Shown: in pieces, positions 44,975 to 49,741 of the stretch
Layout: every line of letters begins with the position of its first letter
How positions within the stretch are numbered: position 1 is the stretch's first letter
Source of the DNA: Azohydromonas caseinilytica
GTDB lineage: Bacteria > Pseudomonadota > Gammaproteobacteria > Burkholderiales > Burkholderiaceae_C
DNA: 64,000 nt
Direction: 5' to 3'
Assembly (NCBI RefSeq): GCF_012927045.1
Contig: NZ_JABBFW010000002.1
Coordinates: forward strand, 352,801-416,800
The notes under the pieces: generated by a model
Databases searched by the model: none
What the model was told of the DNA's origin: nothing
What the model saw: only the letters and a program-made list of their open reading frames with translations
Translations under genes and position numbers: made by a program

Positions 44975-46384
44975 ATGCCTGCTGTATTTCCCCCCCGTGA
45001 CGCCTCTCCCGCCCCGCGTGACGAGGAAGTGGCACGCCTGCGCGTGCCCCCGCATTCCATCGAGGCCGAGCAAAGCGTGCTCGGCGGCCTGCTGCTCGAC
45101 AACGGCGCCTGGGACCGTGCCGGCGACACGCTCGCCGAAGGCGACTTCTACCGCTACGAGCACCGGCTGATCTACGCCGCCATTGGCGGCCTCATCAGTG
45201 CCAGCAAGCCCGCTGACGTCATCACCGTTTTCGAGCAGCTTCAGAGCTTGGGCAAGGCCGAGGAGTGCGGTGGCCTGGCCTACCTCAACGCCCTGGCGCA
45301 GAGCGTGCCCAGCGCGGCCAACCTGCGCCGCTACGCCGAGATCGTTCGCGAGCGCGCCATCCTGCGCAAGCTCATCGAGGCCAGCGACGAGATCGCCACC
45401 AACGCCTTCAATCCGCAGGGCCGTCCGGTGTCGCAGATCCTGGACGAGGCCGAGGGCAAGATCTTCAAGATCGGCGAGGAAGGCTCGCGCCAGAAGCAGG
45501 GTTTCCAGGGCATGGACCACCTGGTGATGCAGCTCATCGACCGCGTCACCGAGCTGGCCGAGAACGGTGCCGAAGAGGTGACCGGCGTGCGCACCGGCTT
45601 CTACGACATGGACCGCATGACGGCGGGCCTGCAGCCGGGCGACCTCATCGTCCTGGCCGCGCGCCCTTCCATGGGCAAGACCGCCTTCGCCCTGAACATC
45701 GCCGAGCATGTGGCGGTGCACGAGGGCCTGCCGGTGGTGGTGTTCTCCATGGAAATGGGCGCGGCGCAGCTGGCGTTGCGCATGGTGGGCTCGCTGGGCC
45801 GCATCGACCAGCAGCACCTGCGCACCGGCGCACTGCGCGACGACGAGTGGAGCCGCCTTACCGAGACCGTGGACCGCCTGAGCAAGGCCAGCGTCTTCAT
45901 CGACGAGACGCCGGCCCTCAATCCCGCCGAGCTGCGTGCGCGTGCCCGGCGCCAGGCGCGCCAGTGCGGCCGCCTGGGCCTGATCGTCATCGACTACCTG
46001 CAGCTCATGAGCGGCTCGGCGGGCAACGAGGAGAACCGCGCCACCGTCATCGGCGAAATCTCGCGCGGCCTCAAGGCCCTGGCCAAGGAGCTGCACTGCC
46101 CGGTGATCGCGCTGTCGCAGCTCAACCGCTCGGTGGAAACGCGGCCCGACAAGCGGCCGATGATGAGCGACCTGCGCGAGTCCGGCGCCATCGAGCAGGA
46201 CGCCGACGTGATCATGTTCATCTACCGCGACGAGTACTACAACAAGGAGTCCAAGGAGCCCGGCGTGGCGGAAGTGATCATCGGCAAGCAGCGTAACGGC
46301 CCGGTGGGCACGGTGAAGCTGACCTTCCTGAAGCCGCTGACCAAGTTCGACAACCTCGCCCCCGGCAGCGTGGCCGACTACTGA
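44975..46384 (+). CDS. dnaB: Replicative DNA helicase DnaB
   Basis: Hexameric 5'-to-3' helicase at the replication fork. The 469-residue product has the N-terminal DnaB domain (PPHSIEAEQSVLGGLLLDN), a linker, and the RecA-like C-terminal domain with Walker A AARPSMGKTAFALNIA, VVVFSMEMGAAQLALR and Walker B LIVIDYLQLMSG. It also has RNGPVGTVKLTFLKPLTKF near the end. A Pro-rich N-terminal lead of about 20 residues precedes the domain. No intein is present. PriB, its loader partner, is encoded nearby. Confidence 0.97.
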   Translation: MPAVFPPRDASPAPRDEEVARLRVPPHSIEAEQSVLGGLLLDNGAWDRAGDTLAEGDFYRYEHRLIYAAIGGLISASKPADVITVFEQLQSLGKAEECGGLAYLNALAQSVPSAANLRRYAEIVRERAILRKLIEASDEIATNAFNPQGRPVSQILDEAEGKIFKIGEEGSRQKQGFQGMDHLVMQLIDRVTELAENGAEEVTGVRTGFYDMDRMTAGLQPGDLIVLAARPSMGKTAFALNIAEHVAVHEGLPVVVFSMEMGAAQLALRMVGSLGRIDQQHLRTGALRDDEWSRLTETVDRLSKASVFIDETPALNPAELRARARRQARQCGRLGLIVIDYLQLMSGSAGNEENRATVIGEISRGLKALAKELHCPVIALSQLNRSVETRPDKRPMMSDLRESGAIEQDADVIMFIYRDEYYNKESKEPGVAEVIIGKQRNGPVGTVKLTFLKPLTKFDNLAPGSVADY

Positions 46385-46456: not shown

Positions 46457-46476
46457 TACTGTATAAAACCACAGTA
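46457..46476 (+). promoter_or_regulatory. LexA box (SOS operator) abutting the radical SAM start codon
   Basis: TACTGT-N8-ACAGTA has perfect 6-bp arms and fits the CTGT-N8-ACAG consensus used by LexA in Beta- and Gammaproteobacteria. The last A of the palindrome is the first base of the downstream ATG. A TATAAA at 46462-46467 inside the box could be the -10, so bound LexA would directly cover the promoter. Confidence 0.85.
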
Positions 46477-47651
46477 TGCGTACCGCCCACACTCCTGCCG
46501 CCGTGCCCCTGCGCTTCATGCCCTACAAGGGGCGGGGCGCGTCGGGCCACATCGCGTCCCGTTTCGAGGCGCTGGACCGCGAAGGCTTCGATGACGGTTG
46601 GGGCACGCTGGCCCAGGCGGCGCTGCAGGAGCGCGCTGCGCCGCGCACGCAGCTCATCGAGCAGCACGCGCGCACCATCCTGTCGGGCAACGACTCGCCC
46701 GACATTCCCTTCGATCTGTCGATCAACCCCTACCGCGGCTGCGAGCACGGCTGCATCTACTGCTTCGCGCGCCCCACGCACAGCTATCTCGACTTCTCGC
46801 CGGGGCTGGACTTCGAGACGCGCATCGTGGCCAAGACCAACGCCGCCGAGAAGCTGCACGAGGCTTTCGCCAGCCCGGGCTACGAGCCGGCGCTGCTGAG
46901 CCTGGGCTCGGCCACCGACGCCTATCAGCCCGCGGAGCGGCAGCTGCGCATCACGCGCGGCCTCATCGAGGTGCTGTCCGAGCACCGCCACGCCTTCAGC
47001 ATCGTCACCAAGTCCGCCGGCATCGAGCGCGACCTGGATCTCATCGCGCCGATGGCGGCGCAGCGGCTGGCCGCGGTGTACGTCTCCATCACCACGCTGG
47101 ACGTGAAGCTCGCGCGGCTGATGGAGCCCCGGGCCGCCGCGCCCGCGCGGCGGCTGCGCACCATTGAAACGCTGGCGCGCGCCGGTGTGCCGGTGGGCGT
47201 GAGCGTGTCGCCGCTGATCCCGCTGCTCAACGAGCCGGAGCTGGAGCGCATCCTGGAGGCCGCGCGCGACGCCGGCGCCAGCCGCGCCTTCAGCGTGTTG
47301 CTGCGCCTGCCGTGGGAAGTGAACCCGCTGTTCCAGCAGTGGCTGCAACAGCACTTCCCGCAGCGCGCGGCGCACGTGATGGCGCGCATGCGCGAGCTGC
47401 GTGGCGGGCGTGACAACGACGCGCGCTTCGGGCGGCGCATGCGCGGGCAGGGCGTCTGGGCCGAGCTGCTGTCGCAGCGCCTGCACAAGGCCTGCGCGCG
47501 GCTGGGCCTCAACCGGCAGCCGCTGGAGCTGGATCTGACGCAGTTCCGCCGCCCGGCCGCGCCCGCGCGCCAGGCCGCAGCGGTACGCCGGGGTGCACCG
47601 GCCAGTGCCTTGACGACGCAGTTGGACAACCTGCAGGGCGAGTTGTTCTGA
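46476..47651 (+). CDS. PA0069-family radical SAM protein (SplB-related), SOS-controlled
   Basis: The 391-residue product has the radical SAM motif CxxxCxxC in YRGCEHGCIYCFARPTHSYLD, a SplB-like domain with TKSAGIERDLDLI, SITTLDVKLARLMEPRAAAP and VSPLIPLLNEPE, and a basic C-terminal region. Relatives include spore photoproduct lyase, which repairs a UV-induced thymine dimer, but the substrate of this subfamily is unknown to me. The N-terminal MPYKGRGASGHIASRFE segment is a subfamily trait. The LexA box at its start codon strongly suggests a DNA-damage role. It lies 91 bases after dnaB and can be transcribed independently. Confidence 0.88.
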   Translation: MRTAHTPAAVPLRFMPYKGRGASGHIASRFEALDREGFDDGWGTLAQAALQERAAPRTQLIEQHARTILSGNDSPDIPFDLSINPYRGCEHGCIYCFARPTHSYLDFSPGLDFETRIVAKTNAAEKLHEAFASPGYEPALLSLGSATDAYQPAERQLRITRGLIEVLSEHRHAFSIVTKSAGIERDLDLIAPMAAQRLAAVYVSITTLDVKLARLMEPRAAAPARRLRTIETLARAGVPVGVSVSPLIPLLNEPELERILEAARDAGASRAFSVLLRLPWEVNPLFQQWLQQHFPQRAAHVMARMRELRGGRDNDARFGRRMRGQGVWAELLSQRLHKACARLGLNRQPLELDLTQFRRPAAPARQAAAVRRGAPASALTTQLDNLQGELF

Positions 47652-47961: not shown

Positions 47962-49668
47962 TCAGTGGGCGGTCGCGTCCATTGGCCGACGACAGGGCGC
48001 GAAGACGTCCAGATCAGCCCGGTACTCCGTCGTCTTCACCTGCAGCCAGCCCAGCACGCTGTGCGAGAGATGGTCATGGGACAGCGGCTGCTGGCGCCGG
48101 CCGCGCAGGCAGCCCAGGTCGTGGCCCGTGGCGGCCTCGGTAGCCTTGGGCCACCAGGCGATGAGCGGCACATGCTTTTGGGCGCGCGGCGCCACGCTGT
48201 AGGGCAGGCCGTGCAGGTACAGGTTGTTTTCGCCCAGTGACTCGCCATGGTCCGACACGTACAGCAGCGCCGGTGTCCAGGCAGGCGTCTTGTGCTGCAG
48301 CCAGGCCGCCAGCGCGGTGAGCAGCCGGTCGGTATAGACGATGGAGTTGTCGTAGGCGTTCACCAACGCCTGCCGGTCGCAATGCTGCAGTGCCGTGTTG
48401 GTGCACTCGGGCTGGAAGGGCTTGCCGTCGGCCGGCGAGCGCAGGTGGTAGGCCGGACCGTGGCTGCCCATCTGGTGCAGCACCAGCACCACGCCGCGCG
48501 CGCGGGACTCGGCGGGCAGCTGCGCCAGGCGCTGGTCCAGGCCGTGCAGCATCGCCATGTCGAGGCATTCGCCGTTGTCCTTGCACAGGCCCGGCGGCAG
48601 CGGCGGCGCGCCGGGCACGGGATCGCTGGCCATGGCGTTGTGCACGCGGTCGCACAGGCCCTTGCAGCCGGACTGGTTGTCCAGCCACAACACCGCCAGC
48701 CCGGCGTGCTGCAGCACGTCCAGCAGGTTCTCCTGGGGCTGCCGCTGCGCCTCGAAACCCTCCCGGCCCAGCAGCGAGAACATGCACGGCAGCGAGGCCG
48801 CGGTGCTGGTACCGCAGGATGTGACGTCGGTGAAGCTTGCCACCGGCAGGCCTGACAGGCCCGGGTTGGTCGGCCGGCCGTAGCCATTGAGGGCGAAATG
48901 GTCGGCGCGGGCCGTCTCGCCCACCACCAGCACCATCAGCGGCGGCGGGGCGCCCTGGGGCCGCGCCGCCAGCACCGCGTCGCGGCCCACCGGTGCCGGC
49001 GGCACGTTGCGCTGCGCCGCAGCGGAGCGCGTGGTCGCGCGCGCCACCGAGTACCAGCCGTTGATCGGGCTGATCATGTAGCGCAGCGTGGTGTGGTTGC
49101 GCATCAGCGAGGAGAAGTCGGCGAAGGTGGCGTAGATCAGCCCCGCCGCCAGCGCCAGTCCGCCCACCAGCAGCGCGAGGTTGCGCAGCAGCCCGCGCGG
49201 CAGGCCCGGGCGCGCCAGCGGCTGGCGCCAGAGCCAGGCCATCGGCAGCAGCGCCAGCAGCAGGAAGCTCAGCAGCAGCGGCAGGCCCAGCAGGTCGCGC
49301 ACTTCGCGCGCGTCGGTCTGCAGCACGTTGACCATCATCGTCGGGTCGAGCACCACGCCGTAGCTGCCGATGAAGTGCGCCGCTCCCGCCAGGCACAGCA
49401 GCACGAGGCTCAGCAGCGGCTTGACCAGCCGCGGCCAAGCCAGCGGCGCCAGCAGCGCGGCCAGCACGCCGGCGATGCCCAGGCCCATCGACAGGCCCAA
49501 CACCGGCAAGCGCCAGCCTGCGAGCTCCGGCAGCGACATCAGGCGCTGCCACAGCGGCCAGTTGCCCGGACCGGCGCACCACAGTGCCGTGAGCACGACC
49601 AAACCCTGGGGGCTCCAGGCTTGGCGCGAGTTTCGGATTTCCGAGGAAAAGAGCACGCGGGATTTCAT
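47962..49668 (-). CDS. eptA: Lipid A phosphoethanolamine transferase, EptA/MCR type
   Basis: Transfers phosphoethanolamine from phosphatidylethanolamine to lipid A phosphates on the periplasmic face, which lowers polymyxin binding. The 568-residue product has five N-terminal transmembrane helices and a sulfatase-fold domain. Motifs match the family: VVGETARADHFALNGYGRPT (metal-binding E251), SCGTSTAASLPCMFSLL with the presumed nucleophile T289 and the Cys pair C285/C295, and VSDHGESLGENNLYLHGLP. The ATG at 49668 (MKSRVLFSSEIRNSRQAW) is preferred to an upstream start. It is divergent from another alkaline-phosphatase-fold enzyme. Confidence 0.92.
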   Translation of the reverse strand: MKSRVLFSSEIRNSRQAWSPQGLVVLTALWCAGPGNWPLWQRLMSLPELAGWRLPVLGLSMGLGIAGVLAALLAPLAWPRLVKPLLSLVLLCLAGAAHFIGSYGVVLDPTMMVNVLQTDAREVRDLLGLPLLLSFLLLALLPMAWLWRQPLARPGLPRGLLRNLALLVGGLALAAGLIYATFADFSSLMRNHTTLRYMISPINGWYSVARATTRSAAAQRNVPPAPVGRDAVLAARPQGAPPPLMVLVVGETARADHFALNGYGRPTNPGLSGLPVASFTDVTSCGTSTAASLPCMFSLLGREGFEAQRQPQENLLDVLQHAGLAVLWLDNQSGCKGLCDRVHNAMASDPVPGAPPLPPGLCKDNGECLDMAMLHGLDQRLAQLPAESRARGVVLVLHQMGSHGPAYHLRSPADGKPFQPECTNTALQHCDRQALVNAYDNSIVYTDRLLTALAAWLQHKTPAWTPALLYVSDHGESLGENNLYLHGLPYSVAPRAQKHVPLIAWWPKATEAATGHDLGCLRGRRQQPLSHDHLSHSVLGWLQVKTTEYRADLDVFAPCRRPMDATAH

Positions 49669-49741
49669 TTGGGGCGCGATTGTCCCGGACTGGCTGGGGC
49701 ACGCTCCGCTCGCGCGGTCCAAGTACCGACGCAGCGTGCGC

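Follow-up and report, generated by a model that had tools for sequence, protein, structure and literature searches.

In a 64,000-nucleotide stretch of the Azohydromonas caseinilytica genome (contig NZ_JABBFW010000002.1, positions 352,801 to 416,800; hereafter the window), a gene for a radical S-adenosylmethionine (SAM) protein of the PA0069 family begins on the last base of a perfect LexA-type operator and ends in a motif of the type that binds the β sliding clamp. Besides the catalytic core, these were the two features that we found conserved with the gene. The clamp-binding-type tail, which the preliminary description of this locus had missed, is the strongest new clue to function. We met no substrate for the radical SAM families PA0069 and Rv2578c, and SOS control alone says just "DNA damage"; the enzyme's place of work would be told by a conserved tail that docks on the clamp.

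The simplest account is that of a stand-alone, damage-induced enzyme which the sliding clamp recruits to DNA. LexA, bound to an operator that covers the start codon and perhaps the -10 element, would repress a single radical SAM gene, which would be expressed once DNA damage leads to RecA-driven LexA cleavage. The product would be a radical SAM enzyme with a barrel like that of spore photoproduct lyase (SPL) and one CxxxCxxC cluster motif; its flexible tail, ending in QGELF, would dock it on the β clamp and so place it at replication forks or repair patches, where a 5'-deoxyadenosyl radical would be used to reverse or modify a DNA lesion. Taken as a whole, the hypothesis of an SOS-induced, clamp-docked radical SAM enzyme acting on a DNA lesion is moderately favoured. 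The preliminary description's interpretation, an SOS-induced repair or nucleic-acid modification enzyme, is supported in part.

The C-terminal tail

Published work gives the bacterial clamp-binding consensus as QL[S/D]LF, more generally QxxLF (PMC12309361), and describes such motifs at the C-terminus (PMC9690074, PMC4549789), often in unstructured sequence (PMC4549789). The tail of the window protein, QGELF, meets the general form and not the strict one. Among 209 complete family proteins (L156 was dropped as cut), 200 carry Qxx[LMI][FLWY] within their last 25 residues and 178 have Q..L[FL] at the exact C-terminus; in shuffled tails, the corresponding means are 10.0 (maximum 21) and 0.48 (maximum 4). 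The commonest forms are QGSLF (22), QLSLF (17) and QGELF (15); residues follow the motif in 22 of the 209 proteins, and three have a six-residue form, Q..L.[LF]. We used two family alignments, A1 with 21 rows and A2 with 63; in A2, Q387 is invariant and L390 nearly so. Across the family proteins, the tail glutamine lies at 25 different distances from the cluster motif. The predicted local distance difference test (pLDDT) block means over residues 361-391 are 59, 56, 51 and 44.

Of 80 named orthologues, 68 end in Q..L[FL], as against none of the 1113 other open reading frames (ORFs) of at least 150 amino acids flanking these 80 loci, a set that includes spurious and cut ORFs. In the genome of the window, MutS has QVDLF and a DinB-type polymerase ends near QPELPLF. 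We also examined the tails of ten distant relatives from plasmid records (including L322-L326 and L329, with Streptomyces, Nonomuraea, Arthrobacter and Tsukamurella among them). The four actinobacterial proteins end in QLTLL, QLRLL, QEPLF and QESLF; an Aeromonas relative ends in QLRLF and has a CTGT-N8-ACAG box; and the tails of Roseburia, Acetoanaerobium and Gemmatirosa read QQSLFD, QLSFF and QLSLGI, respectively. From this pattern of sequence conservation, we consider it probable that the tail docks on the clamp. Since QGELF is a weaker match than QLSLF, A. caseinilytica is not the best species for a clamp-binding assay.

The same residues could be read as a structural latch, or as a tail by which a protease recognises a transient SOS protein. 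Degradation is common among SOS proteins, and the motif's position as the very last residues of 178 of the 209 proteins would suit such a role. A latch, however, would not be expected to be predicted with low confidence, as this tail is; the many distances between cluster motif and tail also speak against this reading, and the extra residues found after the motif in 22 proteins would hardly be tolerable for a terminal degron. We regard this explanation as unlikely and prefer that of a clamp ligand.

Family, predicted fold and substrate

The assignment to the PA0069 family made in the preliminary description is supported by the match to NF033668 (an NCBIfam hypothetical equivalog), which spans model positions 1-345 of 348 and lies well over the cut-off (Table 1). 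C89, C93 and C96 of the cluster motif are the only invariant cysteines in the family alignments. The closest named relative among those fetched is an Azohydromonas australica protein, 87% identical. In a comparison by predicted structure, the closest fold is that of SPL (PDB 4fhc, 4fhf and 4k9r), 5 Z units above the next row, so that the fold predicted for the window protein is of SPL type; that it is a radical SAM protein with an SPL-like fold is, on the predicted model, nearly certain. At the level of sequence, the protein gave no match at E ≤ 0.1 to the SPL family models TIGR04070 and TIGR03886, which match other PA0069 members weakly (43 of 63, best 3.5e-6, and 13 of 63, respectively). Phmmer and two profile searches of the PDB listed no SPL chain; the relation to SPL rests on the predicted fold, and it is at that level that the relation claimed in the preliminary description stands.

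Beyond the named loci, PHROG 13321, a phage family of no assigned function, matches the window protein (143.4 bits), and two unannotated faecal phage records show partial matches at 33-34% identity. One genome, G139, holds two near-full-length PA0069-family copies (L152 and L155).

We favour DNA as the substrate, with modest confidence. An enzyme whose target during SOS is RNA, a protein or a free nucleotide, its clamp-like tail being coincidental or a mere tether, is improbable to about the same degree as the latch or degron: the margin by which SPL leads the fold comparison speaks against it, as does a tail that is of DNA-replication type and nearly invariant. That the enzyme reverses the lesion is a more tentative proposal than that it acts on DNA, and falls slightly short of an even chance.

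A true photoproduct lyase, performing SOS-induced, SPL-type reversal of UV thymine lesions, is less likely still. In SPL, C140 (named in PDB titles) is the hydrogen-atom donor. This fourth cysteine, which we mapped by spacing and not by residue alignment, has no conserved counterpart in the family: a cysteine falls within residues 134-142 in 19 of 63 members, and none does in the window protein. Spore photoproduct, moreover, forms mainly in spores, and the lack of a match to the SPL models counts in the same direction. On the other side stand the predicted fold and PMC3323433, which reads "splB" of α- and β-Proteobacteria as an SOS-induced means of reversing UV thymine lesions, a reading offered there as a proposal.

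The LexA-type operator

The preliminary description had placed a perfect LexA operator against the start codon, and its letters are confirmed: position 46476, the final base of the operator, is the A of the ATG (46476-46478) that opens the 391-amino-acid ORF. It is the sole perfect match to TACTGT-N8-ACAGTA in the window, where about 0.0003 would be expected from independent bases at 69.1% GC. Shuffled sequence gives a mean of 3.65 matches at up to three mismatches, more than the two found (at 46457 and 7852), so that nothing short of the perfect match is informative. The whole genome (6.654 Mb) holds three perfect sites against an expected 0.031; at up to two mismatches it has 21 places per strand, compared with 39 for the pattern read backwards, so that weak sites, showing no excess, carry no meaning in this genome. 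The second perfect site lies 20 bp before an imuA equivalog (NF033429, 199.8 bits, cut-off 150) in a cassette that also encodes a DnaE-type polymerase of the error-prone kind (1386.6 bits, cut-off 939); imuA/dnaE2-type cassettes are classical SOS targets. A 513-amino-acid ORF between imuA and dnaE2 gave no match in the family-model search. The third (L016 3362-3381; G000:C20:46361-46380) precedes a 167-amino-acid ORF with no Pfam or NCBIfam match, in surroundings that give the impression of a mobile element.

In 35 of 77 perfect boxes from the same taxonomic family the ATG likewise begins one base after ACAG, the runner-up spacing, seven bases after, occurring in 7. Because a -10-like TATAAA lies inside the box, transcription could begin at or beside the ATG, which would give a leaderless mRNA wholly covered by the repressor; a strict sigma-70 promoter scan found no promoter.

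For the conservation of the box, we collected PA0069-type matches at E ≤ 0.001. They occur in 108 of 150 same-family genomes, in 56 of 120 from an order sample and in 94 of 249 from a phylum sample; 105, 54 and 88, respectively, were over the cut-off. From 210 loci, a fixed stretch before the conserved core was scanned. Partial or broken matches were left out (for example G057, G079, G081, G136, G101 and G031 in the family, G245, G197, G207, G200 and G184 in the order and G453 in the class), and the upstream stretch was incomplete for one family locus, one order locus and one class locus. The set from other classes of the phylum comprised 35 of 57 loci over the cut-off (the 30 best-scoring and five more), 22 being left out. 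That CTGT-N8-ACAG is a LexA site in the order is supported by a perfect copy in front of lexA in 17 of 30 order relatives examined.

A perfect CTGT-N8-ACAG was found in 77 of 103 family loci, 9 of 48 order loci outside the family, 14 of 21 class loci and 0 of 35 loci from other classes, with 0-2 matches for eleven scrambled half-sites and 0-1 for six wrong spacings; the box sought in relatives is well kept in family and class, and missing in its perfect form from most loci of the order. With one mismatch allowed, the counts are 92, 16, 14 and 1 (scrambled controls 3-25, 2-11, 0-3 and 2-8, respectively), a signal that stands out in family and class, is weak in the order and is absent from other classes. 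In the other classes, 29 of 35 loci have a perfect GTTC-N7-GTTC (seven controls, 0-3), a direct repeat that is the LexA site of alphaproteobacteria; judging from this motif and the named loci, the set is alphaproteobacterial. A prior-free count of all palindromic and direct-repeat 4+4 dyads ranks CTGT-N8-ACAG top in family and class; for the order the top rank goes to this palindrome widened by one base, and for the other classes to GTTC-N7-GTTC. Among named loci, which overlap the other sets, all 7 from Pseudomonas and all 9 from Burkholderia, Paraburkholderia and Caballeronia have a perfect CTGT-N8-ACAG, and 9 of the 10 whose titles are alphaproteobacterial have GTTC-N7-GTTC. On a quick tree of 207 loci, box states changed 30 times by parsimony; this figure, having no shuffle control, was not used.

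A box conserved in orthologues, and exchanged in another clade for that clade's own LexA motif, bears out the earlier reading of it as a LexA operator, and from the sequences the gene is very probably under SOS control. A functionless chance palindrome, although any single site could arise by chance and the box is missing from many same-order loci, is scarcely credible given the 0.0003 expected per window, the retention in 77 of 103 family loci and the switch of motif in other classes.

A number of observations weigh against the account of an SOS-induced, clamp-docked enzyme. The sequences within each set of loci are related to one another, and most of those from the phylum are the best-scoring loci. 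In the order, the one-mismatch count is only a little above its scrambled controls and 32 of 48 loci have no box within one mismatch. Twenty of these 32 sit in genomes with a LexA over the cut-off; a box within one mismatch occurs in 14 of 34 genomes with such a LexA against 2 of the 14 that have none over the cut-off (p 0.07, one-sided Fisher test), so that loss of LexA accounts for part of the boxless loci at most. In these loci the regulation was apparently lost or altered. Dyad counting in the 32 for a separate operator motif gave a few CTGG variants amid GC-rich noise. CTGT-N8-ACAG and GTTC-N7-GTTC are both missing from six named Xanthomonadales-type loci, and TTAG-type sites, looked for in six such loci, were not found. 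The genome's own lexA (L026, G000:C23:97407-98063) has no TACTGT-N8-ACAGTA within four mismatches in the 3.7-kb locus scanned, just a half-site, GATGAAAATACAGGT, near its start. As for the tail, two of the ten distant relatives (Paenibacillus and Priestia) lack the motif, and no clear clamp motif is seen in the 513-amino-acid ORF of the imuA cassette; QGELF has G where the strict consensus has L (position 2) and E where it has S/D (position 3); and the tail, although likely disordered, is drawn with low-confidence helices by the model. A motif match is not binding: one QxxLF peptide binds its clamp at only ~78 uM (PMC12309361).

We found no conserved neighbour. ORFs of at least 90 amino acids within up to 3 kb on either side of 80 named loci were clustered in search of a conserved operon partner; since no neighbour family exceeds 10 of the 80 loci, dnaB, just upstream in the window, is not a general partner.

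Table 1. Features of the radical SAM locus, in window coordinates
Feature	Position	Strand	Evidence or remark
dnaB	44975-46384		profile matches; just upstream of the radical SAM gene
LexA-type operator TACTGT-N8-ACAGTA	46457..46476	.	letters TACTGTATAAAACCACAGTA; motif scans; kept in relatives
TATAAA, possible -10 element	46462..46467	+	inside the operator; LexA boxes contain TATA anyway
PA0069-family radical SAM protein, 391 aa	46476..47651	+	NF033668 457.9 bits (cut-off 360); Pfam Radical_SAM 55.9 bits
CEHGCIYC, CxxxCxxC [4Fe-4S]-cluster motif (C89, C93, C96)	46740..46763	+	three Cys invariant in A1 and A2
Variable linker, residues 361-386	47556..47633	+	predicted with low confidence
QGELF, clamp-binding-type motif, residues 387-391	47634..47648	+	matches QxxLF consensus
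Phosphoethanolamine--lipid A transferase	47962-49722	-	NF028537 509.9 bits (cut-off 500); convergent orientation relative to the radical SAM gene

Comparison with known systems

SOS control as such is not new, because five studies precede ours: PMC3323433 predicts LexA control of "splB" in α- and β-Proteobacteria with markedly divergent LexA motifs, PMC8565304 describes SplB/COG1533 as SOS-regulated in several species, PMC7739468 includes a radical SAM protein in the SOS core of Gram-positive bacteria and lists one for Balneolaeota, PMC9380542 lists for Streptomyces a radical SAM gene that is bound by LexA and induced by damage, and PMC3765255 links SplB-like proteins to SOS operons. For its regulation, "under-described", as the preliminary description had it, was too strong. 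The "splB" genes of PMC3323433 may be PA0069-family loci, with which their taxonomic groups and the switch of motif agree; that study did not observe such control in its γ-Proteobacteria, compared with the box in every named Pseudomonas locus here. In the literature searched, mostly outside subscription journals, we found nothing that connects radical SAM enzymes with clamp motifs, nothing joining PA0069 (present only as a locus label) with radical SAM or LexA, and nothing on Rv2578c with mitomycin. PA0069 is said to have been placed in the P. aeruginosa LexA regulon by Cirz et al. in 2006.

If the account is true, direct radical chemistry would join the activities carried by the sliding clamp, and published readings of such genes as "photoreactivation under SOS" would need revision. 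A wider scheme, replisome-coupled radical SAM repair, in which the β clamp recruits an SOS-induced SPL-fold enzyme to forks for in-place lesion reversal without light, excision or bypass, from Proteobacteria to Actinobacteria, is speculative and rather doubtful at present; its enzyme would be, so far as we found, the first radical SAM clamp client.

The window protein shares with the PA0069 family the CEHGCxYC motif and the C-terminal Qxx-L-F/L, and the sole difference we found from other members is a longer linker before the tail. The Rv2578c family (NF038135) is the next best model, at 209 bits over residues 60-297 and under its cut-off of 430 bits; the actinobacterial relatives end in QxxL[LF] (4 of 4) and have a Gram-positive-type SOS box, GAAC-N4-GTTC, upstream in 2 of 4. 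With SPL (SplB; the three structures above) identity is 14-16%, and the window protein differs in carrying a clamp-type tail and in having no conserved fourth cysteine. Clients of the β sliding clamp include polymerases, MutS and Hda, and also transposases (the last in PMC4549789). The parts of PMC4549789, PMC12309361 and PMC9690074 consulted name no radical SAM enzyme among them; the window protein, as a putative client, resembles them in its C-terminal QxxLF, borne on a low-confidence and probably disordered tail.
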